NCBI GenBank assembly: GCA_902627935.1
Contig: CACOLA010000001.1
Coordinates: 1-64,000 of the forward strand
Length of the DNA: 64,000 bases
Direction of reading: 5' to 3'
From: an uncultured Pelagibacteraceae bacterium
Lineage (GTDB): Bacteria; Pseudomonadota; Alphaproteobacteria; Pelagibacterales; Pelagibacteraceae
The position numbers and the translations under genes were made by a program. Under the pieces are notes generated by a model that saw only the letters and a program-made list of their open reading frames with translations, was not told the origin of the DNA and made no database searches. Position 1 is the first letter of the stretch. Each line of letters starts with the position of its first letter. Below, one piece after another: positions 4,212 to 17,185 of the stretch.

Positions 4212-5654
4212 ATGGATACTAGAGAAAAAGACATAGAAAAGTTAAAAGATTATAAGTATGGTTTTACTACCGATATAGAAAATATTAAAGCTCCAAAAGG
4301 GCTTAATGAAGATATAATAAGATTTATTTCTAATATTAAAAAAGAGCCACAGTGGATGTTAGATTTTAGATTGAAGGCTTATGAGCGGTTGAAACTTTTA
4401 AAAGAACCTAATTGGCAAAAACCAAAATATCCTAAGATTGATTATCAAGATTTATATTATTACTCGGCACCAAAAAGCATGAATGATAAACCAAAAAGTT
4501 TGGATGAGCTTGACCCTAAACTTTTAGAAACATATAAAAAACTTGGAATTCCATTACAAGAACAAGCAAGACTAAATGGAATTGCTGTAGACGCTGTATT
4601 TGACTCTGTTTCAGTTGCAACTACTTTTAAGGGTGAATTAACAAAACATGGAATAATTTTTTGTTCAATGTCGGAGGCAATTAAAAAATATCCTGAGCTT
4701 GTAAAAAAATATTTAGGTACAGTTATACCAGTTACTGATCATTTCTTTGCCACACTAAATTCTGCTGTATTTACAGATGGATCATTTGTTTATATTCCTG
4801 AAGGTGTTAAGTGTCCGATGGAATTATCAACATATTTTAGAATCAATGCTTCACAAACAGGTCAATTTGAAAGAACATTGATTATCGCTGATAAAGGGAG
4901 TTATGTGAGTTATCTCGAAGGATGTACTGCTCCAATGAGAGATGAAAATCAATTACATGCTGCTAATGTTGAATTGATAGCCTTAGATGATGCAGAAATA
5001 AAATATTCAACTGTGCAAAATTGGTATCCAGGCGATGAAAATGGTAAAGGTGGAATTTATAATTTTGTAACTAAAAGAGGATTATGTAAGGGAAAAAATT
5101 CTAAGATATCTTGGACTCAAGTTGAAACAGGATCAGCTATAACTTGGAAATATCCAAGCTGTATATTAAAAGGAGATAATTCAATCGGTGAATTTTATTC
5201 TATAGCAATTACAAACAATCATCAAAAAGCAGATACTGGAACTAAGATGATTCATTTAGGAAAAAATACTAAAAGTAAGATTATTTCCAAAGGTATAAGT
5301 GCTGGATTTTCTGATATGACTTACAGAGGTTTAGTAGATATTAATTCAAAAGCTAAAAATTCCAGTAACTATACACAATGTGACTCATTACTTATGGGAA
5401 ATAAGTGTGGTGCACATACAGTGCCTTATATTAAAAATAAAAATTTTGACTCAAATATTGCACACGAAGCCACGACATCAAAAATAAGTGAGGAACAATT
5501 ACATTATTGTCAACAAAGAGGACTGAATCCTGAAGAAGCTGTAGGATTAATTGTAAATGGTTTTTGTAAGGAAGTATTACAACAATTACCAATGGAGTTT
5601 GCGGTCGAAGCTCAGAAACTTGTAGGTATTAGTTTAGAGGGGAGTGTTGGCTAA
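4212..5654 (+). CDS. sufB: Fe-S cluster assembly scaffold SufB
   Basis: Core scaffold of the SufBCD complex on which nascent Fe-S clusters are built. It has 480 residues with the SufB/SufD beta-helix domain. The conserved [21 protein letters not shown] stretch region begins near residue 195, and the C-terminal CGAHTVPYI motif carries the conserved cysteine equivalent to the cluster/sulfur acceptor of E. coli SufB. The C-terminal half ([14 protein letters not shown], then the [11 protein letters not shown] tail) matches the SufB rather than the SufD pattern. Its TAA overlaps the sufC ATG by one base, suggesting translational coupling. Confidence 0.96.
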
Positions 5655-13972: not shown

Positions 13973-14878
13973 CTATTTTATTTTAGCAATTTCTCTTATA
14001 TGTGCTGGACTTGTTTCACAACATCCTCCTAAAATAGATGCTCCATTTTTTTTAAATTTTCTTACAATTTTAGCAATATTCTCAGGGGTAAGATCTTTTC
14101 TTTTACCTAAAACTTCTACAGGGTTTCCAGTTTTACTTTTCAAGTAATTTTCATTGTAGCTAGGATGTGGCTTAGTAGTTATAAATCCGTTTAATTTAAA
14201 ACCAAATGGAACTCCTAAACTTTTCATCTCATCTAAGTTTAATTCAAAATTTTCAGGTGAGACACAAGATAAAAGAACTCCTAATAGTTTATCATCAATT
14301 ATATTCTTTAAGTCAGTTATTTTATCGCCTCCAGGCATAGTAGTACCTTCTGAAATATGAATTCCAATTAAATATGGTTTTTTAAATTCTTTTATTGCAT
14401 CTATTCCACATTTAAATTCTTTAATACTGCTTAATACATCAAAATAAAAAAAATCAATATATGGATTTAATATACTTGCTTGTTCATAAAAATTTCTAGT
14501 AATTTCGTCACTGTTTCTATTATCAGCTTCGTAAGTTAAATTTTGAGGAGGTAGTCCACCTGCTATCAAAATGTGTGGATATTTTTCTTTTACTTTTTTT
14601 GCTATTTCACCAGCTTTTTTATTAAGGTATTCAAATTTGTCCTCTACATTATTATCTTTCAATCTTTTTTTTCTAGTTGCGAACGTAGTGGTTACAATAA
14701 CCTCAGCGCCTGCTTTTATATAATCTAAGTGAGTATTTAATAATAGATCATGATATTTTTTATCTAACAAGGCATTTGCGCTCCATAAAGTGCCATTTAC
14801 CTCCAATCCTCTGGCTAAAAGTTCTTGACCCATTCCACCATCTAATATTCTAGTTTTTTTAAAAAAATCTAAATTCAT
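13973..14878 (-). CDS. Homocysteine S-methyltransferase (MmuM/BHMT family)
   Basis: Transfers a methyl group to homocysteine to form methionine; donors in the family are betaine or S-methylmethionine. It has 301 residues, the opening LDGGMGQELLARG at residues 12-24, and all three zinc cysteines: one in LLSCVSPEN near residue 205 and the adjacent pair in GGCCETSPAHI near residue 290. It lacks a cobalamin domain. SAR11 relatives are described as using betaine (bhmT), but the donor here is an inference. Regulation is by the SAM-II/V-type leader immediately upstream, consistent with feedback by SAM. Confidence 0.88.
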   Translation of the reverse strand: MNLDFFKKTRILDGGMGQELLARGLEVNGTLWSANALLDKKYHDLLLNTHLDYIKAGAEVIVTTTFATRKKRLKDNNVEDKFEYLNKKAGEIAKKVKEKYPHILIAGGLPPQNLTYEADNRNSDEITRNFYEQASILNPYIDFFYFDVLSSIKEFKCGIDAIKEFKKPYLIGIHISEGTTMPGGDKITDLKNIIDDKLLGVLLSCVSPENFELNLDEMKSLGVPFGFKLNGFITTKPHPSYNENYLKSKTGNPVEVLGKRKDLTPENIAKIVRKFKKNGASILGGCCETSPAHIREIAKIK

Positions 14879-14889
14879 TTTTTATCATC

Positions 14890-14981
14890 AATTTATTGAT
14901 CATCCAGGAATTTCCATTTTAGCAGTAAATGCCCGCAATAGGATCAAATCGGCAAATTATTTATATAATGATCAATAAATT
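14890..14981 (-). repeat. 14-bp inverted repeat enclosing the SAM aptamer
   Basis: AATTTATTGATCAT at 14890-14903 and its exact complement ATGATCAATAAATT at 14968-14981 flank the aptamer. The copy nearer the gene ends 11 nt before the ATG at 14878. In RNA the two arms could form a long stem around the riboswitch, placing the ribosome-binding region in structure, so it is a candidate expression platform. Confidence 0.65.
14912..14956 (-). promoter_or_regulatory. SAM-II/SAM-V-type riboswitch aptamer
   Basis: On the minus strand a short stem TGCC (14951-14954) / GGCA (14930-14933) encloses a loop containing GATTT and ATTGC. It is followed by a TTTACTGCTAAAATGGA segment whose GGA (14913-14915) can pair with TCC (14941-14943) in the loop, making an H-type pseudoknot. 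The order GATTT..., ATTGC, then GCTAAAA-x-GG is the conserved core I recall for SAM-II; SAM-V shares a similar core. The downstream gene makes methionine, fitting SAM feedback. Confidence 0.75.
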
Positions 14982-15044
14982 TGTAAACTATTTTTTATAC
15001 TTTAAATCTAAACTAAATCTAAGAATGAATTTTACGAAAAATTG

Positions 15045-15395
15045 TTAATTTTTTTGATCATTATCTACAACAAGACATATTTCAGATTTTGTTAAAAACC
15101 TTTTTCCAGTACCATTGTCCAAAGAAAACATTCCACCAATACCTTTAACAGCATCAATGGTTAAATCCGTGTGTTTCCATTTTTCATATTGGTCATCATT
15201 CATGTAAAAAGGCACTCCACCGATTTCTCCAAGTTTCACATCGCTTGAGCCAACCATATACTCATTTCTTGGATAACACATTGGTGCGCTACCATCACAA
15301 CATCCACCAGACTGGTGAAATAATAGTTCATCACCATGCTGAGCTTTAAGCTCTTCAATTAATTTTAATGCTGATTTTGTTGCTTTTACTTTCAT
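15045..15395 (-). CDS. DUF779 family protein, aldehyde dehydrogenase partner
   Basis: A 116-residue protein of the DUF779 family, with the cysteine-rich FHQSGGCCDGSAPMCYP motif near residue 28 and the closing GMFSLDNGTGKRFL. Members are regularly encoded beside AldB/ExaC-type aldehyde dehydrogenases; the role is unknown, perhaps metal or thiol related. The start at 15395 (MKVKATKS) is chosen because the upstream frame MAREESRA comes from an inverted repeat that looks like a terminator. That hairpin separates it from the aldehyde dehydrogenase and could reduce its expression relative to the enzyme. Confidence 0.85.
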   Translation of the reverse strand: MKVKATKSALKLIEELKAQHGDELLFHQSGGCCDGSAPMCYPRNEYMVGSSDVKLGEIGGVPFYMNDDQYEKWKHTDLTIDAVKGIGGMFSLDNGTGKRFLTKSEICLVVDNDQKN

Positions 15396-15402
15396 AAAAA
15401 AT

Positions 15403-15428
15403 ATGGCCCGTGATTCTTCACGGGCCAT
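15403..15428 (-). terminator. Hairpin with U-tract between aldehyde dehydrogenase and DUF779 genes
   Basis: A perfect 11-bp stem (15403-15413 with 15418-15428) and a 4-nt loop, followed on the minus strand by ATATTTTTTAT. It has the form of a Rho-independent terminator or attenuator placed about 18 bp after the dehydrogenase stop and 8 bp before the DUF779 ATG. Confidence 0.75.
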
Positions 15429-15445
15429 TATATATAAGATTATTT

Positions 15446-17185
15446 TTAAAAGAAGCCTAATTTCTTTTCACTGTAAGACACGTGAAGATTTTTCACTTGT
15501 CTGTAGTGGTTTAGCATCATTTTATGTGTTTCTCTTCCGATACCAGATTGTTTGTATCCACCGAATGCAGCATGTGCAGGATAAGCGTGATAACAGTTAG
15601 TCCATACTCTACCAGCTTGTATTTCTCTACCCATTCTGTAAGCGATATTTCCATTTCTAGTCCAAACACCAGCACCTAATCCATAAAGAGTATCATTGGC
15701 AATTTCTAATGCCTCTGCCTCATCTTTAAACTTAGTTACTGATACAACTGGTCCAAAAATTTCTTCTTGGAAGATACGCATTGAATTATTTCCCTCAAAA
15801 ATAGTTGGTTCAATATAGTTTCCTTTCTCTAAACCACTATTGATTTTTGCAACATTTCCACCACATAGAACTTTGGCACCTTCTTTCTTACCTAAATCTA
15901 GGTAAGATTTTATTTTCTCCATTTGCTCTAATGATGCTTGTGCACCAATCATTGTTTCCATTTTTAAAGGATTGTCCTGTTTAACAGCTTTCGTTCTAGC
16001 AATAGCTTTTTCCATGAACTTATCATAGATAGACTCTTGAACTAATACTCTACTTGGACAAGTACAAACTTCACCTTGGTTTAAAGTGAACATTGCAAAA
16101 CCTTCAAGACATTTATCAAAGAAATCATCATCTTTAGCCATGACATCCTCGAAGAAAATGTTTGGAGATTTTCCACCTAATTCCAAAGTGATTGGTATTA
16201 AGTTTTGAGATGCATATTGCATAATCAATCTACCAGTTGTAGTTTCACCAGTAAAAGCAATCTTTTTGATTCTTTTAGATGATGCTAGTGGTTTACCAGC
16301 CTCCAAACCATAGCCACTTACAACGTTTACTACTCCTGGAGGTAATAAGTCCCCGATTAGTTCCATAAGTAACATAATTGATGCTGGTGTTTGCTCAGCT
16401 GGTTTTAGCACTACACAGTTACCTGCAGCTAAAGCTGGAGCAAGTTTCCAAGTTGCCATTAATAATGGAAAGTTCCATGGTATAATTTGTCCAACAACAC
16501 CTAGTGGTTCAGGAATGTGATAAGAATATTCACTATTACTAATTTCAGCAACTGAACCTTCTTCTGCTCTGATTACTCCAGCAAAATATCTCCAATGATC
16601 TATTACTAGTGGTAAATCAGCAGCCATACATTCTCTTATTGGCTTACCATTATCTAAACATTCAGCTGTTGCTAATACATTTAAATTTTTTTCAATTACA
16701 TCAGCAATTTTAAGAAGAATGTTTGATCTTTCCGTGATTGAAGTCTTGCCCCAAGTTGGGAAAGCTGCGTGAGCTGCATCTAATGCAGCATCTACGTCTT
16801 TTTCATTTGATCGTGCAATCGAACAGATTACTTCATTTGAAATTGGGGATGTATTGTCAAAATATTTTCCTGATTTTGGCTCTACAAACTTACCATTGAT
16901 ATAATTTCCATATTTTGCTTTAAACGGAAATTTTACTTTCAAATGAGAAGTATCTAATACAGATGACACTTTCATAGCTTCTGCACTCATTTTTTTTACT
17001 CCTCTTGTTTTTTTTGTTGATTTAAGTCTATTATTTTTTCTAGAAGTTTTAGAACGAATATTAGTCGCAGATTTTTTTGTCCTGACTTTTTTCTTCGTTT
17101 TAATTTTTTTTCTAGATTTTTTGACCAATTTAGACTTTTTTTTACTGGTCTTTTTTTTTGCTATTTTTTTTCTTTTAATAGCCAT
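15446..17185 (-). CDS. aldB: NAD-dependent aldehyde dehydrogenase (AldB/ExaC type) with lysine-rich N-terminal tail
   Basis: Oxidises short aliphatic aldehydes to acids. The core, from about residue 85, shows [24 protein letters not shown], the [14 protein letters not shown] glutamate motif and the catalytic cysteine in [11 protein letters not shown]; the AldB/ExaC type is supported by the adjacent DUF779 gene. Unusually, the open frame begins with about 65 residues made almost only of Lys, Arg, Ser, Thr, Ile, Val, Ala and Asn, with no acidic or aromatic residue. A second start at 16990 (MSAEAMKV) has a strong AGAGGAG site 8 nt upstream and gives a normal 514-residue enzyme. Which start is used, or whether both are, is open. 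Confidence 0.9.

Follow-up and report, generated by a model that had tools for sequence, protein, structure and literature searches.

A candidate short SAM-II-like aptamer without SAM-V in the mmuM leader of a Pelagibacteraceae bacterium

The mmuM locus and the core of its leader

The window, i.e. the whole stretch of 64,000 nucleotides analysed here from an uncultured Pelagibacteraceae bacterium, encodes on its minus strand a homocysteine S-methyltransferase, mmuM, in agreement with the original prediction for this gene. The ATG is located at 14878, and the gene upstream lies on the same strand, as does the hypothetical gene upstream of mmuM in HTCC1062 (Ca. Pelagibacter ubique) (PMC2704228):

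13973..14878, minus strand: mmuM, homocysteine S-methyltransferase, 301 aa (PF02574, 4.8e-51)
15045..15428, minus strand: DUF779 gene, upstream of mmuM

Further upstream, 15446-17185 (-) encodes an ExaC-like acetaldehyde dehydrogenase (892.6 bits, cut-off 900) with a Lys/Arg-rich N-terminal extension of ~80 residues beyond the family model. A comparable Lys-rich coding stretch was observed upstream of mmuM, on the opposite strand, in L017 and L022.

The minus-strand leader of mmuM contains a SAM-II-like core at 14954-14912, just as had been described, with the sequence TGCC-GATTTGATCCTATTGC-G-GGCA-TTTACT-GCTAAAATGGAA. The pairs of this short element were counted on 15 relatives, and its predicted parts are:

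14911..14956, minus strand: short SAM-II-like aptamer (model R1, 69.4 bits, E 9.7e-17)
14953-14951/14933-14931, minus strand: P1 (3 bp), counted on 15 relatives
14949-14945, minus strand: third strand AUUUG
14943-14941/14915-14913, minus strand: P2a, counted on 15 relatives
14938-14935 with 14923/14922/14920/14919, minus strand: P2b, counted on 15 relatives

Pairing was retained in 99.3% of the cells over the 15 relatives, with one double change apiece in P1 (G-C to A-U) and P2a (U-A to A-U). Across the leaders P1 is GCC/GGC in 138 cases, ACC/GGT in 2 and GCT/GGC in 2, and in 1 leader it is disrupted. P2a reads UCC/GGA, with compensation in isolated cases, and P2b does not vary. As P1 comprises just 3 bp and the sequence is mostly invariant, the covariation hangs on single cases. 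The connector from P1 to P2 is 5-9 nt in every relative counted, and there is no P3. A fourth P1 pair was considered and rejected, as T/A, T/T and T/G combinations all occur there and appear unconstrained. The ligand contacts of the SAM-V crystal structure (PMC6061858), with positions mapped by sequence, are all present in the core (U14948, U14947, U14946, A14939, U14938, U14937, G14936, U14921, A14920, A14919 and A14918); the contacts of SAM-II are reported to be very similar to those of SAM-V (PMC6061858).

Detection and relation to known SAM riboswitches

A covariance search with the Rfam models for SAM-II (RF00521), SAM-II long-loop (RF01726) and SAM-V (RF01826) did not report the leader, even at E 10, and so gave no match of the kind foreseen in the original prediction. 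Likewise, a genome-wide search with RF00521 and RF01726 yielded nothing at the leader, and the gathering threshold was not reached; RF01826 returned in this genome only the metY SAM-V (84.6 bits) and one sub-threshold match of 25.6 bits. This negative outcome misleads, however: where the short element lies beside confirmed SAM-V matches, it escapes these models too. Conversely, R1, a covariance model for which 15 diverse relatives were used and the window sequence was left out, matched 14911-14956 at 69.4 bits, with the second-best match at 10.8, and detected the short element in 156 of 399 genomes of the genus. Judged by homology, i.e. from the R1 score, the position of the element beside SAM-V in relatives and the presence of the SAM-V contacts, the leader appears to carry an aptamer of SAM-II/V type, as originally proposed.

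The short element has in common with SAM-II (RF00521 SAM_alpha; RF01726) the GATTTnAnCC..ATTGC loop, the GCTAAAA-x-GG strand, the predicted H-type pseudoknot, and the single base separating ATTGC from the 3' strand of P1. However, P1 is ~5-6 bp in SAM-II and 3 bp in the short element, in which just 5-9 nt lead from P1 to GCTAAAA, no terminator follows, and both Rfam models score it below their reporting limit. The 16-nt loop GATTTGATCCTATTGC is identical to that of SAM-II matches in Kangiella (L140, 35.2 bits) and SAR86 (L105, 26.8 bits), which points to kinship of the short element with SAM-II. In Kangiella sp. HZ709 (L140), the SAM-II-type match (4852-4926, +), slightly under gathering, is located ~220 nt from a SAM-I riboswitch on the other strand (4521-4634, -; 73.1 bits). 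The genome of the window also holds a canonical SAM-II candidate at C3:40059-40133 (L003:1501-1575), immediately followed by a T run; it scores 32.9 and 25.2 against Rfam gathering thresholds of 44 and 36, respectively, and so falls under both.

The likeness to SAM-V (RF01826) extends to a short P1, the AUUUG third strand, UAUUG and the U-A-A-A contact strand (PMC6061858), as well as to the association with SAR11 methionine genes including mmuM. In contrast to SAM-V, the short element has no P3 hairpin and gives no RF01826 match, and its P2a strand is located ~33 nt before the ATG (~35 nt for the GG at 14915-14914), without a Shine-Dalgarno site. Beyond cellular genomes, the plasmids searched gave no match, and the one match in viral contigs, without an evident SAM-V-type leader, was taken as chance; phage MmuM homologs are distant, with <30% identity among the matches listed.

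Tandem arrangement with SAM-V and its loss

In the genome of the window the same core is found directly upstream of the metY SAM-V (L001). Similarly, both the metY and the mmuM leader of HTCC1062 carry the short element before SAM-V, and in the mmuM leader of L020 the core again lies upstream of SAM-V, at coordinates agreeing with those of HTCC1062 mmuM. Among the 30 best-scoring SAM-V loci of the genus, picked irrespective of the short element, it was located just upstream at 29, the 30th being cut by a contig end (a stricter regular expression gave 15/30). The leaders collected with both elements comprise 80 of metY and 54 of mmuM.

Tandem SAM-II/SAM-V RNAs have been published, with a terminator described between the two aptamers (PMC9481103). 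The bhmT tandem is alike in placing a SAM-II-type aptamer ahead of SAM-V; its SAM-II is long and its linker contains poly-U (L226), in contrast to the short element and the 20-30 nt terminator-free linker of the metY and mmuM tandems. The long SAM-II with terminator is seen at bhmT of HTCC1062 (L225-L227), and no terminator poly-U was found between the elements in the listed metY and mmuM tandem leaders when read by eye. The window leader differs further from bhmT in having no SAM-V at all, and a terminator scan of it revealed no intrinsic terminator. The translational SAM-II of Sinorhizobium meliloti metA is reported to work without a terminator (PMC9373788), although this is a canonical aptamer, unlike the short element.

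Five mmuM leaders have the short element without an intact SAM-V, namely the window, L168, L137, L088 and L127. The window leader lacks SAM-V, which relatives have and which also occurs at metY in this genome. On an MmuM tree that took in four of these solo rows, with L168 left out, the solo label requires four changes, each forced by well-supported branches. This indicates that SAM-V was lost repeatedly, in at least four independent events, with the short core staying intact.

A short element left behind in this manner might be a relic that regulates nothing, its decay still to come. The window leader, which has no convincing expression platform, would be in line with such an outcome, and L138, the nearest tandem-like leader, shows how the remainder of the leader was rebuilt. 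However, the short core is retained after all of the at least four losses, in mmuM loci that were partly chosen for having it, and the SAM-V remnants of L088 and L127 are heavily degraded; moreover, SAM-V stands alone in 0 of 30 loci picked by protein similarity. A functionless remnant is consequently regarded as unlikely. As a separate observation, mmuM has no leader of any kind and lies close behind another coding gene in L012, L013, L016, L019, L230 and L232, so these six SAR11 loci have lost the entire riboswitch leader or had it replaced.

Predicted promoter and the inverted repeat

The remaining parts of the window leader surround the aptamer as follows:

14982..14987, minus strand: predicted -35 box TTTACA, the best -35 in 27 mmuM leaders
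14968..14981, minus strand: 5' arm of the 14-bp inverted repeat, within the predicted promoter spacer 14966-14981; not conserved
14960..14965, minus strand: predicted -10 box TATAAA, at a conserved position; implies a start at ~14953, the first base of P1
14890..14903, minus strand: 3' arm of the inverted repeat, of which the part GATCAATAA is common to the linkers of tandem relatives L138 and L062
14884..14903, minus strand: local imperfect hairpin AUGAUCAAUAAAUUGAUGAU directly before the start codon, from RNA folding of the predicted transcript

The predicted promoter is sigma-70-like, TTTACA-N16-TATAAA, with the 5' arm occupying its spacer. A sigma-70-like -10 precedes GATTT by 8-14 nt in 85% of mmuM leaders (by 9-10 nt in most of them) and in 68% of metY leaders, as compared to 11% for shuffled sequences. 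A simple consensus promoter scan of the window leader did not call the predicted -10 and -35, and the support for this promoter is consequently its conserved position.

The exact repeat is present as originally noted: the arms are 14 nt long, 100% complementary and 64 nt apart, and the inner one stops 11 nt short of the ATG. No other inverted repeat in the 64 kb reaches 14 bp with arms up to 100 nt apart. A first-order Markov model gives a chance expectation of 0.13 such repeats per 64 kb and ~0.001 for a 166-nt leader of the same composition; the repeat is thus improbable locally and unremarkable across the whole window.

According to the original prediction, the arms could close a large mRNA stem around the aptamer, controlled by SAM and affecting ribosome access to mmuM, and so form a distinct expression platform. 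The low chance expectation in the leader speaks for such a stem, as does its formation when 14870-14990 is folded (-21.2 kcal/mol), but the fold z-score is only -1.3 and 11 nt would separate the stem from the ATG. The longest stretch over which promoter region and linker are perfectly complementary measures 3-9 nt in other mmuM leaders and reaches 14 in the window alone, and duplexes of the linker with the upstream region are at background (z ~0.1, metY and mmuM alike). Furthermore, the 5' arm lies between a -35 and a -10 of conserved position and would therefore be absent from the mRNA. Both arms would be found in RNA reading through from the upstream DUF779 gene, and if such read-through occurs the stem could form in those transcripts. 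On balance a SAM-controlled closing stem is improbable, slightly more so than the relic, and as a conserved structure or expression platform it is not supported by the comparison of leaders, being peculiar to this genome. The part GATCAATAA shared with the two tandem linkers identifies the 3' arm as inherited linker. As the 5' arm is upstream of the predicted transcription start, the repeat is most likely a chance or lineage-specific by-product and not a stem at work in the mRNA. In combination, the proposal of a SAM-II/V-type riboswitch with a new platform is supported for the aptamer, by homology, and not for the 14-bp closing stem.

The arms could also be read as a DNA operator, with a regulator bound to TGATCA-containing sites both within the promoter spacer and beyond the start. 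Each arm contains the palindrome TGATCA, one copy falling between -35 and -10, and an imperfect third copy of the TGATCA-containing arm, 86% complementary to the 5' arm, was observed in the end codons of the DUF779 gene (15047-15067). Nevertheless, conservation across mmuM leaders is lacking for the 5' arm and for the TGATCA within it, and an operator is considered very unlikely.

Linker complementarity and proposed mechanism

The linker between the short element and the start codon contains a stretch that may pair back with the aptamer:

14896..14901, minus strand: candidate anti-aptamer strand GATCAA, complementary to TTGATC 14947-14942 of L1

The predicted duplex of the window linker with L1 is modest (-6.7 kcal/mol). 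Across the class, complementarity of the linker to the aptamer (P1/L1) exceeded that expected from composition in metY leaders (mean z -3.2, 97% at p<=0.05, n=80) and in mmuM tandems (mean z -2.0, 48% at p<=0.05, n=54); among the solo leaders the duplex reached p<=0.05 in 2/5. The P1 strand is GCT in three leaders, the linkers of which match that change; as the ACC-for-GCC swap leaves the duplex energy unaltered in L020 and L083, the GCT cases alone count as linker covariation. In metY the complementary linker stretch extends into the P1 strand of SAM-V (TCGGTAGGCA), suggesting gating of the second aptamer by the first. A comparable arrangement is known from the bhmT tandem, where the linker masks the SAM-II domain. 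Still, that domain, a different SAM-II, was unresponsive to SAM in the full-length RNA (PMC11508383), which counts against the explanation favoured here.

With a probability of roughly 70%, the window leader represents a SAM-II relative with a short P1 that stands alone, binds SAM as an H-type pseudoknot and lowers mmuM expression at high SAM, having arisen from a tandem of short element and SAM-V by loss of the latter. The sequence itself shows the homology to the first element of the tandem, the intact contact nucleotides, the limited compensation in P1 and P2a, the fixed position of the predicted promoter, the conserved linker complementarity of the class and the loss of SAM-V. Without SAM, the linker GAUCAA (14901-14896) would compete for L1 by pairing with it; with SAM bound, the pseudoknot would form and release the linker beside the start codon, altering translation so that mmuM expression would be lower. 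This OFF direction is based on the analogy to SAM-V and on the induction of mmuM in HTCC1062, where its transcripts go up under sulfur limitation (PMC5069961). Near the mmuM ATG nothing resembling a Shine-Dalgarno sequence can be seen, and in folding the predicted accessibility of the start site hardly changed on holding the aptamer (0.51 to 0.48), a weak test as the pseudoknot was mimicked only by a constraint. Since folding gave no change at the start codon, the final step of the mechanism is putative.

Implications

SAM-V is a well-studied riboswitch, and SAR11 are among the most abundant bacterial groups of the ocean. No account of the short element was found in the literature searched, which did not include the first publication on SAM-V (Poiata et al. 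2009). The metY aptamer used for crystallography is 53 nt, and metY of HTCC1062 has the additional short element upstream. The inverted repeat is in itself of little importance.

A broader proposal, tentative and held at somewhat below even odds, is that SAR11 metY and mmuM transcripts begin with a minimal SAM-II-type aptamer with a 3-bp P1, and that the linker behind it either pairs with this aptamer or frees the P1 strand of SAM-V, gating SAM-V without a terminator; the solo cases would then regulate mmuM via an undescribed platform. If it is true that nearly all SAM-V riboswitches of SAR11 metY and mmuM act behind an overlooked SAM aptamer, the limits of the regulatory unit have been set too narrowly, and solo leaders such as that of the window would be natural tests of the short aptamer acting alone.
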